Below are positions 21,925 to 30,171 of a stretch of 64,000 bases of DNA, one piece after another. Positions within the stretch are counted from its first letter, which is position 1, and each line of letters begins with the position of its first letter. Made by a program: the position numbers and the translations under genes. A model generated the notes under the pieces. It worked only from the letters and a program-made list of their open reading frames with translations, was not told the DNA's origin and ran no database searches. Source of the DNA: Natronorubrum halalkaliphilum (GTDB taxonomy: Archaea; Halobacteriota; Halobacteria; Halobacteriales; Natrialbaceae); assembly GCF_009834785.1 (NCBI RefSeq), contig NZ_WUYX01000069.1, positions 1-64,000 of the forward strand, given 5' to 3'.

Positions 21925-22047
21925 CTGTCAAAACGGTACGTGACCCAGCATGCTAAATGCCCCGGATGAGCATGCGTTCCCGGCGTTGACGGTCGATTGC
22001 ATGGTTTGGAGTCGGGCCTATACTCGATCGTCCCTTCGGTACCAGTG

Positions 22048-23910
22048 ATGACAAAACACTCGCCGACCGATGACGGTGGATCGACGATCGAGGGGGCCGG
22101 CATCGACGGTCGGATCCACGTCCAGACCGACGGCGAACGCCGCGGCAGCGACCGCCAGGTCGAATACGAAACGGTCACGACACCCGTCCTCGTTATCGGC
22201 GCCGGTGCGGCGGGAGCGCGCGTCGCCATCGCACTCGCCGAATCGAACCTCGAGCCGCTGGTCATCGGCAAGCGTGATCACGGCGACGCCCACACGACGT
22301 GGGCCGCGGGCGGGATCAACGCCGCGCTCGGCTCGCTCGACGAGGACGACGACTGGACGATCCACGCGGCGGACACGCTGAACGAAGGCCACCACCTGAA
22401 CGACCCCGAGGCCGTCGAACTGACCGCGAAACGGATGCCGGATCGCATCCGCGAACTCGACGACTGGGGGATGGCGTTCGACCGCACCGATGACGGCAAA
22501 ATCAACCAGCGCTACTTCGGCGCGCAGTCGTACCGCCGAACCTGTTTCGTCGGTGATCGAACCGGCGAGGCGATGCTCGAGACGCTGATCGACCGGGCAC
22601 GGGAACTCGAGATTCCCTACCGCGACAACGTGATGATCACCCGGCTGCTCTCGGACGGCACCCGCGTCGACGGCGCGGTCGGATTCGATATGGAGACCGG
22701 CGAGGGACTGCTGTTCCGGACGAACCACGTCGTCCTTGCGGCCGGCGGGTTCTCGGCGCTGTACCACCGCCACTCCTCGCGGGACGACGAGAACAACGGC
22801 GACGGACAGGCGCTTGCTCTCGAGGCCGGTGCGCAACTGACGGCCCTCGAGTTCGTTCAGTTTCACCCAACGGGGATGGTCGGCGAACGATATGGCGATG
22901 AGTGGGACGGCCGACTCGTCACCGAGGCCGTTCGGGGCGAGGGTGGTCGCCTGTTCAACGCCGAGGGCGAACGGTTCATGGAACGCTACTCGCCGGACCA
23001 GATGGAACTCGACGCGCGCGACGTCGTCGCGCGAGCGATCGCACGGGAGGTTCGGGAGGGCCGCGGGACCGACAACGGCGGCATCTACCTCGACATCTCT
23101 CACCGCGACCCCAGCTACGTTCAGGAGCGGCTGCCGTCGATGGTCGAGCGATTCGCCGACCTCGGGGTGGATATCACGAGTGAACCGATGGAAGTCGCCC
23201 CGACGGCCCACTACACGATAGGTGGCGTCGATATCGACTTCCGAACCGGCGAGACGGGCGTCGACGGGCTGTACGCCGTCGGGGAGACGGTCGCCGGCGT
23301 CCACGGCGCGAACCGCCTCGGCGGAAACTCGCTGGCGGAGACCGTCGCCGTCGGCAAAGTCGTCGGCGATCACGTCGCGAACGCGGTGACCAGCAGGGAT
23401 CGCGTACCCACCGTCACCGATGCCCAGCGCGCGCTCGCCGAGCGGGAGTTTCGGGCACTCGCGGATCTCGCCGACTCCGACGGTACGGTTCCCCCGAAAA
23501 CGTTGCTCGAGGACCTGGGAGACCTGTTGTGGGACACCGCAGGCATCCTTCGGGACGCCGAGTCACTTCGCGAGGGGCTGGACGGTGTCGCCGAAATTCG
23601 GGCACGAACGGCCGATATTCACGTTGACGGCGACCGAACGTCTCGCTCGTTCGAGTACGCCGTCGACCTCTCGTTCAGCCTCACCGTCGCCGAAGCGATG
23701 CTCCGGACTGCCCTCGAGCGAACCGAATCTCGAGGGGCACACTATCGAACCGACTACCCCGAGACGGATAGCGACTGGCGGGTCACGCTCGTCCTCTCGG
23801 CCGACGAACGCGGGCTCACGATCACGCGTCGTGGCGTCGCCGACCCGTCGGAACCGGTACGGGAATCACTCGAGGAGGGCCACGAACTCGACTACCACCA
23901 CCTCGAGTAA
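22048..23910 (+). CDS. Free-standing fumarate reductase/succinate dehydrogenase-type flavoprotein
   Basis: A 620-residue FAD protein of the SdhA/FrdA/NadB family. Motifs are VLVIGAGAAGARVAI (dinucleotide-binding), AHTTWAAGGINAAL, FVQFHPTGM, TEAVRGEGGRLFN (active Arg), TAHYTIGGVDI (His) and HGANRLGGNSLAE. A His precedes the AAGG element, at the place used for covalent FAD in SdhA; aspartate oxidase normally lacks it. There is an N-terminal extension of about 45 hydrophilic residues. No iron-sulfur or anchor subunit is beside it, and a full sdhCDBA operon lies elsewhere in the window. The ATG at 22048 has an A/T box at about 22017-22023. It might be a soluble fumarate reductase or NadB-like oxidase. 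Confidence 0.8.
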   Translation: MTKHSPTDDGGSTIEGAGIDGRIHVQTDGERRGSDRQVEYETVTTPVLVIGAGAAGARVAIALAESNLEPLVIGKRDHGDAHTTWAAGGINAALGSLDEDDDWTIHAADTLNEGHHLNDPEAVELTAKRMPDRIRELDDWGMAFDRTDDGKINQRYFGAQSYRRTCFVGDRTGEAMLETLIDRARELEIPYRDNVMITRLLSDGTRVDGAVGFDMETGEGLLFRTNHVVLAAGGFSALYHRHSSRDDENNGDGQALALEAGAQLTALEFVQFHPTGMVGERYGDEWDGRLVTEAVRGEGGRLFNAEGERFMERYSPDQMELDARDVVARAIAREVREGRGTDNGGIYLDISHRDPSYVQERLPSMVERFADLGVDITSEPMEVAPTAHYTIGGVDIDFRTGETGVDGLYAVGETVAGVHGANRLGGNSLAETVAVGKVVGDHVANAVTSRDRVPTVTDAQRALAEREFRALADLADSDGTVPPKTLLEDLGDLLWDTAGILRDAESLREGLDGVAEIRARTADIHVDGDRTSRSFEYAVDLSFSLTVAEAMLRTALERTESRGAHYRTDYPETDSDWRVTLVLSADERGLTITRRGVADPSEPVRESLEEGHELDYHHLE

Positions 23911-23990: not shown

Positions 23991-24584
23991 ATGTTAGCAG
24001 ACGCCGAACCCATGCTCCGGCAGGACCCCGTCATGGCGGAGCTCATCGAGCGACACGATCCGTACGTCGAACCGAACTGGGACGAGTTCGAACGACTCTG
24101 TATCTCCATCATCAACCAGCAGCTCTCGACGGCGAGTGCGGCCGCCGTCCGCGAACGGGTCTTCGAACTGTTCCGCGACGACGTGACGCCCGAAGCCGTC
24201 CTCGAGGCCGAAGACGAGGCGCTGCGCTCGGCTGGACTCTCCCGGCAAAAGGTCGAGTACGTGCGAAACGCAGCGCGGGCGTTCCAAGAACAGGACTTCA
24301 CCCGGGAGGGGCTGTCCGACCACTCGAACGATGAGGTGATCGATCTGCTCACCGAAATCAAGGGAATCGGCGACTGGACGGCCCGCATGTACCTCCTGTT
24401 CGTCCTCGAGCGACCGGATATCCTTCCGCTGGGTGATCTCGCCGTCCGTCGCGGCATCGAACAGCTGTACGGGAACGGCGACGAAGAGCTGACGCGAGCG
24501 GAGATGCGTGAGATTGCCGACGCGTGGCGACCGTACCGAAGCGTCGCGACGCGATACATCTGGGCCGAGTACGAGTCCGAGTAG
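23991..24584 (+). CDS. DNA-3-methyladenine glycosylase II (AlkA family)
   Basis: A 197-residue HhH-GPD base-excision glycosylase. It shows NQQLSTASAAAVRERVFELF near the N-terminus, the helix-hairpin-helix EIKGIGDWTARMYLLF, and the catalytic Asp in ILPLGDLAVRRGI. It would remove alkylated purines from DNA. There is no Fe-S cluster cysteine motif, so it is the AlkA rather than the MutY/Nth branch. Start at the ATG 23991; the ATG seven codons later (24012) is an alternative. Single gene, 80 bp after the flavoprotein. Confidence 0.88.
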   Translation: MLADAEPMLRQDPVMAELIERHDPYVEPNWDEFERLCISIINQQLSTASAAAVRERVFELFRDDVTPEAVLEAEDEALRSAGLSRQKVEYVRNAARAFQEQDFTREGLSDHSNDEVIDLLTEIKGIGDWTARMYLLFVLERPDILPLGDLAVRRGIEQLYGNGDEELTRAEMREIADAWRPYRSVATRYIWAEYESE

Positions 24585-24854
24585 CGAATTTCGGCGCGAA
24601 GGCGTCGCCGTCGCCGACTCCGTCGAACGAACAAACGCGCGTTTCTCGTCGGTGAACGGTCTGAAACGGTCGGGGTTCCCGTCGGCCGACTGCAGTAATC
24701 CGTTGCTGTTACTGGCTCACACACCGGGGGTCGGGCGACAAGACGAGATTACGCACCCGCCTGTGCAGGCCGATTGCGGGGGTTCGAGAAACGAGATACT
24801 GATCCGGTGAGACGGCCCTGCCGACTCAAGTGTCGTTCGGCCGCAGACGCGACT

Positions 24855-26246
24855 ATGGGAGACGAAACAGCCAGCGGCGACCCGGAGCGACGAATGACGA
24901 CCGATCCCGAACGGATCAGAGAGTGGGCCGAAACCCGCGATGCCGTCCCCGTTTCGATCCACGGCGGCGAGGGCCACGGCGGCGGTCCCGGCCACTCGTT
25001 CGTTCGACAGGGCGATATCGGGGAGGGTCACGAGGAGTACACCTGGGACGAGTTCACTACCACGTTCGAGAACGAGGATCTGGTGTTCGTCTACCGCGAT
25101 GACGAACCGACCGGCGAGGAACTGGGTCACTTCGAACTCGTCGAGCGCGAGACGGCGTTCGATCGAGCCGATCTCGGCCGGACCGAACTCGAGGACAAGC
25201 TCCGGCAGGGGGAGACGGTAACGACCGAAATCGTCGAGACGCAGGTCATCGAACGAGAAATCGTCGAGCGGGACACCATCGAGAGCGAAGTCGTCGACAC
25301 CGAACTCACCGAACGACACGTCGTCGGCTCGGAACTGTTGAACCGGGAGATCGTCGACACCGAGTTCGTCACCGCCGACGTCATCGAGGTCACGACCGAC
25401 GAGACTCGCCTCGACACCGTCGAAGAGATCGAACGGTACACGATCGAGAGCCGCGTGGTCGACGTCGACCTGGAACACGACGAGGAGATCGAACGCGGCG
25501 AAATCGAGACCGATGTGGAACTCGAGAGCGTCCAGCGGTCGATCCTCGAAAGCGACGTCATCCGCTCTAGCGTCTCGCCGGACGAGGTCATCGAACGGGA
25601 GGTTATCGAGAGCCAGCGCGGCGAGGGCGACACCGTCCGTAGCGAGCTCCTCGAGCGTCGTACGGTCGAAGAACAGATCGACGAGCGGACGCGAATGCGC
25701 TTTACGCTCGAGGAGACCGAACTGATCGAATCGGAGGTGATCGGAAGCGACATCATCGAGGGCGAGATCATCGACGTCGCGGAATACGGCGAAATCGAGA
25801 CGGCCGGTGTGGGAACGGAAACCGAAGTCACGGCGGGAGAGTCCGGAGTGACTGAGACGGACGCCGGCGCGTCGGGGATGGGTGAGGCCGATCCGGAGAC
25901 TGGGACCGGGCCCGGCACGGGAACCGGAACCGAAGCCGAAACTGACACTCCGGCCATCGACGCGGGACCGGTCGAACTCTCGAGTCACGATCGGGGGAAA
26001 GACGTCGTCGACGAGACGGGCCAACAGATCGGTATCGTCGCGGAAGTCGACGGTCAGACCGCCTACGTGGACCCCGAGCCGGGCCTGGCGGATCGACTCA
26101 AAGCGCGATTGAACTGGGGGAGCCGCGGCGACGACGAGTATCCGGTCGAGGCGTCGAAGATCAACGAGATCACCAACGACACGGTAATCATCCAGCACAG
26201 CGGGGACGAGACCGCCACCGGCGATCACGGTCACGATATCGACTAA
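24855..26246 (+). CDS. Acidic protein with five-residue repeats and C-terminal PRC-barrel-like domain
   Basis: A 463-residue protein. The N-terminal 120 residues are globular with a Gly/His-rich patch (HGGEGHGGGPGHSF). Residues about 121-185 have strict five-residue periodicity: EIVET, QVIER, EIVER, DTIES, EVVDT, ELTER, HVVGS, ELLNR, EIVDT and so on, with aliphatics at positions 2 and 3 and charges at 1, 4 and 5. The pattern recurs around 263-310 (ELLER, RTVEE, QIDER; TELIE, SEVIG, SDIIE, GEIID). Such regularity suggests a solenoid related to pentapeptide-repeat beta-helices, though the Ala-Asp/Asn-Leu signature is absent. A Thr/Gly/Glu linker leads to a C-terminal 75-residue PRC-barrel-like fold (GKDVVDETGQQIGIVAEVDG). 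Function unknown; no signal peptide. Confidence 0.75.
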   Translation: MGDETASGDPERRMTTDPERIREWAETRDAVPVSIHGGEGHGGGPGHSFVRQGDIGEGHEEYTWDEFTTTFENEDLVFVYRDDEPTGEELGHFELVERETAFDRADLGRTELEDKLRQGETVTTEIVETQVIEREIVERDTIESEVVDTELTERHVVGSELLNREIVDTEFVTADVIEVTTDETRLDTVEEIERYTIESRVVDVDLEHDEEIERGEIETDVELESVQRSILESDVIRSSVSPDEVIEREVIESQRGEGDTVRSELLERRTVEEQIDERTRMRFTLEETELIESEVIGSDIIEGEIIDVAEYGEIETAGVGTETEVTAGESGVTETDAGASGMGEADPETGTGPGTGTGTEAETDTPAIDAGPVELSSHDRGKDVVDETGQQIGIVAEVDGQTAYVDPEPGLADRLKARLNWGSRGDDEYPVEASKINEITNDTVIIQHSGDETATGDHGHDID

Positions 26247-26327: not shown

Positions 26328-28553
<2,226 letters not shown>

Positions 28554-28713: not shown

Positions 28714-30057
28714 TTACTCCTCTTCTTCGGGCGTATCGGGAACGTCCTGGTCGACCCGACGGCTCACGTCGACCTGATAGTTCCCGAGGATGTCCCGCCC
28801 GAGGAGGACGGGGTAGTCCATGTGGCTCCGGTCTTCGACGCTTGCGGTGACGGTATGCTGGTTCCCGCCGACGCCGACGACTACGTCGACGACGGGGCGA
28901 CTCTTGGCGGTCTTACTGCTGCCGGACCGAATACGCGTGATGGATTTGATGGGGCCCGCGCCGATATCAGCCGCGAGGCTCGTATCGATGCTCGTTCGCG
29001 TCGCTCCGGTGTCCGATTTGGCCAGTACGGTCTTCGAGCCGCTGGTCCCCGATAGCACCACCTCTTCGGTGTAGCCGATCACGGCGTGTTCCGCCTCCTG
29101 TGAGGTCGCCTCTATCGGCTGGGCCGTCGGCCGCGAATCGTCGAGAACGCTTGCGAGTTCTCGAACGCGGTCGTCGTCGACCTCGCCGCCCGCGCGTTCG
29201 ATGGCGAGTTTGGCGATGTACGGAGCCGGGCTGATCTGTGTCGCCTGATAGAGGCCCTTGAACCCCGCCGTCGGGTTCACCTCGAGGACGAACCAGCCTT
29301 CGTCACCTTCGACGAGATCGACCCCGGCGTAATCGAGATCGACGGCGCTGGACGCTCGACGAGCCATGTCGCGGGCTTCGTCGGGGAGGTCATCGGTCGC
29401 GTCCTCGACGGAGCCGCCGAGTGCGACGTTGGTCCGCCAGTCGTTGTCGGGAGCGTACCGGTACATCGCGCCGACGATTTCGCCGTTGACGACGTAGACG
29501 CGGGCGTCGAAGTGACGGTTGTCGTCGCGGTCGATGAGTTCCTGCAAAAAGGCGTACCGGTTGCCGACCTTCGCGTTGATCGGATCGTCGGGTCCGACCT
29601 TCCAGGTGCCGCCGCCGTGGGTACCGATCGCCGTTTTGTACACCGCCTCCTCACCGTAGCGGTCTCGAGCGGCGTTCAATCGATCGCCGCTGAGTGCGAG
29701 CGTGACGTCCGGCGTTCGGACGTCGTTCGACGCGAGGGCGGTCGCCGTCGAGAGCTTGTGGATCGCCGTCATCACCGATGTGGGCTTGTTGAGCATCGGG
29801 ACCAGCTGGGAGAACGTGTTCGCTAGCCCGAGTTCCTCGGCGGGCTGTTCGGTGTTCGACAGCAGCATTCGGTTCGCGATCACGTCGACGTCGGGTTCGA
29901 GCACGACGCTCCCGTCGGTGACGCTGACTGAGGTGTTCTCGGTTCGGAGCCACTCGGTATCGTGGCCGAGCGCCTCGACGGCGTTGAGAATCGCTTTCGT
30001 TTCTTTGCTCGTATGAAGACTCAATACCCCGACGGTGACGGGATCGGAAACAGCCAT
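28714..30057 (-). CDS. RimK-type ATP-grasp ligase fused to a RimK-associated aspartyl-protease-like domain
   Basis: A 447-residue protein. Residues about 8-300 form an ATP-grasp amidoligase of the RimK/LysX type (NKPTSVMTAIHKLSTA, AVYKTAIGTHGGGTWKV, FVLEVNPTAGFKGL with the metal-binding Glu and Asn). Residues about 325-435 match the RimK-associated protease family with a pepsin/retropepsin-like motif (VLAKSDTGATRTSID and YPVLLGRDILG). RimK-type ligases add glutamate or other amino acids to a protein or small acceptor; the protease domain may trim or process the product. The ATG at 30057 is supported by AGTATACTTT at about 30085-30094. Nearby flippase, GNAT and AstE-like genes are suggestive of a shared pathway. 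Confidence 0.85.
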   Translation of the reverse strand: MAVSDPVTVGVLSLHTSKETKAILNAVEALGHDTEWLRTENTSVSVTDGSVVLEPDVDVIANRMLLSNTEQPAEELGLANTFSQLVPMLNKPTSVMTAIHKLSTATALASNDVRTPDVTLALSGDRLNAARDRYGEEAVYKTAIGTHGGGTWKVGPDDPINAKVGNRYAFLQELIDRDDNRHFDARVYVVNGEIVGAMYRYAPDNDWRTNVALGGSVEDATDDLPDEARDMARRASSAVDLDYAGVDLVEGDEGWFVLEVNPTAGFKGLYQATQISPAPYIAKLAIERAGGEVDDDRVRELASVLDDSRPTAQPIEATSQEAEHAVIGYTEEVVLSGTSGSKTVLAKSDTGATRTSIDTSLAADIGAGPIKSITRIRSGSSKTAKSRPVVDVVVGVGGNQHTVTASVEDRSHMDYPVLLGRDILGNYQVDVSRRVDQDVPDTPEEEE

Positions 30058-30171
30058 ACGCGAGTACACGCTAACCCGGGGGAAAAGTATACTGTTCGCA
30101 ACCGCGCGTATGCGCTCGATTTCGGGATAATTTCCTCGATCGACCCGACGATGTCGGGCGTGGACACTCGA

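Follow-up and report, generated by a model that had tools for sequence, protein, structure and literature searches.

The gene at 24855-26246 on the forward strand of the 64-kb stretch of DNA analyzed here (the window) encodes a 463-residue protein of a real, conserved and widespread haloarchaeal family that has no Pfam or NCBIfam name and that bears a very regular, non-canonical five-residue pattern. The reading that we prefer, at a probability of about 40%, is that this protein is not an enzyme but a stress-linked adaptor or chaperone helper, the repeat of which forms a beta-rich, solenoid-like rod. A preliminary description of the DNA had delimited the repeat protein to 25215-25790; the repeat does lie there, but the full gene is the longer span given above, in which residue n starts at window position 24855 + 3(n-1). 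This start codon was chosen because homologues begin MADD..RRMTTDPERIREWAE, and the homologue starts agree with that of the 463-residue frame. The parts of the protein, all on the forward strand, follow in the order N-domain (residues 13-112), repeat region (residues 119-312), acidic linker and C-domain (residues 374-447). The whole protein has a pI of 4.1, with Asp and Glu making up 28% of its residues, and no membrane segment was detected in the 463 residues, where the top hydrophobic 19-residue stretch reaches only 0.83. It is most likely a cytosolic, acidic, three-domain haloarchaeal protein. On the opposite strand, an antisense open reading frame of 505 residues (24717-26234) mirrors the repeat. 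Antisense frames are a frequent by-product of high-GC codon use, and this one, which nothing supports as a gene, most likely arises as an artefact of the high-GC coding sequence on the sense strand.

The strict five-residue period, with at least 11 units and two blocks, was borne out by spectral analysis. Eleven pentads stand in a row at residues 125-179 (window 25227-25391), namely EIVET QVIER EIVER DTIES EVVDT ELTER HVVGS ELLNR EIVDT EFVTA DVIEV. For residues 119-312, the Fourier spectrum of hydrophobic residues has its maximum at 4.95-5.0 and a power of 24.1 at a period of 5.0, a value that none of 5000 shuffles attained (shuffle maximum 9.0). Block 1 (25209-25370, residues 119-172), which has a hydrophobic pair every five residues, gave a power of 21.2 at this period and residues 246-312 gave 12.2, each reached by 0 of 5000 shuffles. 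In the middle of the repeat (25383-25586, residues 177-244) the period is clear at the family level only: residues 179-245 of the single sequence show a weak period-5 power of 3.4, equaled or exceeded in 148 of 5000 shuffles, and the mean over 136 homologues is 7.9 for the middle third, with 0 of 2000 permutations as high. As the family mean thus contains period 5 in every third of the repeat region, the middle included, the array is taken to span residues 119-308. Among 106 unique three-domain homologues, 104 have their peak between 4.8 and 5.2. When all open reading frames of at least 150 residues in the six frames of the 64 kb were scanned, a power above 9 was found in 21 of 8910 sixty-residue windows, and all 21 lie inside this frame. 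At the DNA level, TRF detected a single imperfect 15-bp repeat of 2.3 copies; since a DNA repeat is nearly absent, the periodicity is judged to be old and to reside at the protein level. The unit had been described as x-aliphatic-aliphatic-acidic-x, which holds for block 1 with the exceptions of T141 and T152, but not for block 2 (25587-25778, residues 245-308), where there is mostly one conserved hydrophobic residue per pentad.

Similar repeats do occur in other haloarchaea, a point raised in the preliminary description: residues 1-322 as query gave matches in 79 of 125 genomes of Natrialbaceae and in 119 of 391 genomes of Halobacteria, and among the genomes searched the family was found in Halobacteria only. 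After de-duplication, and in a set that includes loci picked to show variants, there were 129 proteins with N-domain, repeat and PRC domain, three with N-domain and PRC domain but no repeat, two with repeat and PRC domain but no N-domain, and 13 consisting of the N-domain alone. In the two proteins without N-domain (L192 and L193), block 1 is followed by a large acidic insertion. The N-domain and the repeat were not covered by any Pfam or NCBIfam model, either in the 463-residue protein or in 35 members of the family, and isolated matches to NCBIfam profiles (beta-lactamase OXA-732, RsiV and similar) were judged to be due to chance. Relatives were absent from viral contigs, the PDB sequence search gave no credible match, and no paper describing this family was found in the open-licence literature.

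The composition and the periodicity of the repeat argue for a beta-rich domain, because the repeat is rich in Val, Ile and Thr, has 3-4% Ala, lacks a helical period and shows a parity effect in block 2. Val and Ile together outnumber Leu and Met, with a (V+I)/(L+M) ratio of 4.8 for block 1 and 2.2 for block 2. The possibility that the repeat is instead a coiled coil, a single long helix or a disordered acidic region draws on its Asp and Glu content of 32% and on the AlphaFold2 model of the repeat alone (ten close homologues, mean pLDDT 44), which has a helix at residues 242-293 with a pLDDT of about 50-63 over most of its length. The model of the whole protein, likewise obtained with ten close homologues, has a mean pLDDT of 45, with values of 25-44 in the repeat, mostly 54-81 in the N-domain and 34-72 in the PRC domain, and shows two 24-residue strands of very low confidence at residues 176-199 and 261-284. 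The two models thus disagree, a strand at 261-284 in one standing against the helix at 242-293 in the other. Most of the repeat is below 50 in both, as a disordered region might be; because of this low confidence and mutual contradiction, neither model was used for the repeat. Gaussian coevolution analysis (106 and 136 sequences, Neff 75) yielded no reliable long-range contacts, the signal being local only, with lags 1-2 above lags 3-4. Against a helical or disordered repeat, none of the blocks shows power at periods of 3.5-3.67 residues (p about 0.82-0.92), beta-branched residues dominate, and the hydrophobic columns are kept over diverse genera in blocks with few indels. We therefore consider this alternative quite improbable, including the coiled coil that the preliminary description had set against its solenoid.

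The family profile further points to an inner structure of the blocks. In block 1, the best-conserved positions are mostly 122, 126, 132, 136, 142, 146, 152, 156, 162, 166 and 172, while the core hydrophobic residues of block 2, mostly six and four residues apart, are 245, 251, 255, 261, 265, 271, 275, 281, 285, 291, 295, 301 and 305. The same 4/6 alternation, noticed post hoc on looking at the profile, is thus present at the best-conserved hydrophobic positions of both blocks, and within each block the better-conserved hydrophobic residues mostly hold one parity, with additional power at period 2 in block 2. Within block 1, lags of 10, 20 and 40 give slightly greater profile similarity than lags of 5, 15 and 25. 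The power of the hydrophobic profile at period 10 does not reach significance (p 0.36-0.99). The 4/6 alternation suggests that the true unit may be ten residues long and composed of two unequal pentads. A new beta fold of such ten-residue units, confined to haloarchaea and serving as a rigid rod between a stress-type N-domain and the PRC domain and working alongside the stress systems of DnaK/DnaJ or KatG, is a tentative reading that we hold to be possible, though rather unlikely.

Solenoids often differ in coil number. In this family, unlike such variation, the length of the repeat domain is nearly constant: only five indel events were found at residues 251-305 among 137 sequences, and the most frequent deletion in the middle of the repeat is one of four residues (214-217). 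Many homologues have about 8 to 146 extra residues at one insertion site (25359-25385, residues 169-177), and the lengths of these insertions show no bias to multiples of five. The interpretation in the preliminary description is supported in part; its quadrilateral solenoid is one of several candidate readings, and the 4/6 alternation and the near-fixed core length fit a strict quadrilateral coil poorly. Near-fixed block lengths, a single hypervariable loop and same-parity positions would also be expected of a compact beta-sheet domain of long hairpins or a sandwich rather than a solenoid, in which hydrophobic residues of one parity lie on one face and adjacent ones on the other. The two 24-residue strands of the whole-protein model agree with this arrangement, but both are of very low confidence and absent from the repeat-only model, and we regard a compact sheet as unlikely.

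A related question is whether the protein is a divergent pentapeptide-repeat protein, that is, a right-handed quadrilateral beta-helix of four units per coil with Thr/Ser-Glu-Ile/Val in place of Ala-Asp/Asn-Leu/Phe. The period is the same, and (T/S/R)(E/D/Q)(I/V/L)(V/I)(E/D) maps in register to positions i-2 to i+2. The consensus published for pentapeptide repeats is (A/C/S/V/T/L/I)(D/N/S/K/E/I/R)(L/F)(S/T/R/E/Q/K/V/D)(G/D/E/N/R/Q/K) (PMC8145042). Fits to it per five residues are at shuffle level in 137 homologues (0.025 vs. 0.025 shuffled), compared with 0.44 in a canonical protein; if Ile or Val is allowed at position i, matches rise to 0.22 vs. 0.15 in shuffled sequences. The preliminary description had reported the Ala-(Asp/Asn)-Leu signature as missing, and this holds: the 137 repeat regions examined have a median of 0 cores of this type per five residues, compared with 0.61 in a canonical pentapeptide-repeat protein. 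The Pfam pentapeptide model gave no match for the 463-residue protein at E up to 10, and none of the 35 members had a PF00805-type match at E up to 1. When the repeat alone was searched against 295 genomes of the phylum, nothing convincing was found outside the class except canonical pentapeptide-repeat proteins, which align by register. These sole sizeable non-haloarchaeal matches are two proteins with E values of 1e-5 and 7e-5 and 22-24% identity over about 190 residues, but register alone can align any two period-5 sequences. Another match of the phylum-wide search (G511, to residues 94-203 of the repeat query) proved unrelated, being a membrane protein that bears a charged tail. A divergent pentapeptide repeat is further disfavored by R164, an Arg nearly invariant among the 35 diverse members, which would occupy an inward i-2 position, and by the core hydrophobic residues of block 2, which are spaced mostly 4/6 and not 5/5. 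On balance, we find this alternative improbable.

Seven Glu residues of the repeat, E125, E133, E138, E143, E193, E198 and E272, are conserved in at least 90% of the 35 diverse members, and the conserved acidic positions are kept as Glu and not as a mixture of Asp and Glu. Such regularly spaced, near-invariant Glu residues could serve as ligands of Ca, Mg or other cations in a cytosol rich in salt, which would make the domain an ion-binding repeat. Acidity is, however, generally usual in haloarchaea, and such a role appears very doubtful.

Under the preferred reading, the beta-rich repeat would fold into a rigid, solenoid-like rod or stack, distinct from the canonical pentapeptide-repeat beta-helix, and would keep the N-domain and the PRC barrel at a set distance. 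The two end domains, each found separately elsewhere, would bind partners. The N-domain (24891-25190) has no Pfam family and was modeled as alpha/beta. It had been called Gly/His-rich; this does not describe the domain, since the Gly/His stretch (residues 36-46) forms a loop within it and is poorly conserved. The same domain occurs by itself, as a small protein, in haloarchaea and in bacteria, Rhizobium among them. This small protein, common to rhizobia and haloarchaea and without a Pfam family, is widespread in bacteria and is encoded on many plasmids of Rhizobium, Sinorhizobium and Rhodococcus. Two further loci (L129 and L132) encode two N-domains in tandem, with neither repeat nor PRC domain.

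The repeat is followed by an acidic Gly/Thr/Glu linker (25800-25973, residues 316-373) of variable length that contains no Lys or Arg, and by the C-domain (25974-26195). The earlier assignment of the latter as PRC-barrel-like was supported by fold comparison against the PDB, which in effect covered the PRC part alone (residues 376-457 of the model): the best-Z matches are PRC barrels (reaction-centre H, RimM and CdpB1/B2), with a modest Z of up to 4.3 for a model of pLDDT 34-72 in this part. The Pfam PRC score of the 463-residue protein is 15.3 bits, below the gathering score of 21.2, and among the 35 members sub-threshold PRC matches at E up to 1 were obtained for 10, the lowest E being 2e-4. 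With moderate confidence, then, the C-domain is predicted to have a PRC-barrel fold despite its sub-threshold profile score, and on the strength of the fold match the protein is filed as PRC-barrel-containing. The source genome holds the N-domain and the repeat in one copy and the PRC domain in 12, 11 besides this one. The 12 PRC-like copies (G000 contigs C38, C44, C48, C39, C60, C45, C35 and C46) lie in open reading frames of differing lengths and constitute an expanded, poorly described haloarchaeal PRC set.

The proposed link to stress comes from the gene neighborhood. A gene for an HhH-GPD (AlkA-like) DNA glycosylase (23991-24584, forward) adjoins the gene in nearly all main-clade Natrialbaceae loci examined, the catalase-peroxidase gene katG (26328-28517, reverse) is the convergent neighbor in most of them, and in many a gene for an FAD-binding fumarate reductase/aspartate oxidase-like flavoprotein (21997-23910, forward) lies upstream. 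The next conserved neighbor encodes a RimK-like ATP-grasp/Zn-protease protein (28714-30069, reverse). The glycosylase-gene-katG order is conserved in the main clade of Natrialbaceae; the glycosylase gene is flipped in several genomes, with the adjacency kept. In three genomes of one genus (G029, G032 and G033; loci L052, L053 and L054), each with one HSP70 match, a divergent member is located between dnaK and dnaJ. In another genus (L127, L128 and L142), the glycosylase/RimK locus carries an N-domain-PRC protein without repeat, and the long member is found elsewhere, in one case (L064) beside a heavy-metal P-type ATPase gene. Outside Natrialbaceae, the neighbors are mostly different and diverse. 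One genome (G016) has the remnant of a broken gene between the glycosylase gene and katG (L067, C1:3126800-3128982) and an intact divergent copy on a 562-kb replicon (L051, identical with match L095, a plasmid of Halosolutus gelatinilyticus). Because katG, the glycosylase gene and dnaK/dnaJ are among the neighbors, the protein may have a role in oxidative, DNA or protein damage, or in proteotoxic stress; such neighbors can also be hitchhiking synteny.

With katG, a DNA glycosylase gene or dnaK/dnaJ next to it, the gene offers a direct genetic handle in a culturable archaeon. If the repeat is a solenoid, Glu, Ile, Val and Thr can build a five-residue coil at molar salt concentrations; otherwise, the domain may represent a new repeat fold.

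With the pentapeptide-repeat proteins (PF00805), the family shares the period, a hydrophobic core position, the lack of a helical period and more than eight contiguous units; at least eight such units is the criterion, and block 1 has 11. It differs from them in that neither A(D/N)LXX nor its 2019 extension describes the repeat, in having no Pfam match, in the replacement of Leu/Phe by Ile/Val and in the 4/6 alternation. As both the consensus and the Pfam models failed, we do not place it among the pentapeptide-repeat proteins. YsnF-type stress proteins (DUF2382 with a PRC barrel) have a charged region rich in beta-branched residues joined to a PRC barrel, and the present protein resembles them in this respect, which we take as a lead only; DUF2382 (PF09557) was absent from the Pfam results of the 35 members. 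The known PRC-barrel proteins (PF05239), such as RimM, the reaction-centre H subunit and CdpB1/B2, have the same C-terminal fold, which in this family is joined to a repeat and an N-domain. The N-domain itself finds its counterpart in WP_011427509.1 of Rhizobium etli p42b (L094:7983-8246), annotated as hypothetical, with an HMM match of 5e-19 and the shared motifs TTDhxxIRxWaexR..P and then WdeFf.xF...LafxYxdx; the bacterial protein of about 90 residues stands alone, whereas the haloarchaeal domain is fused to the repeat and the PRC barrel.
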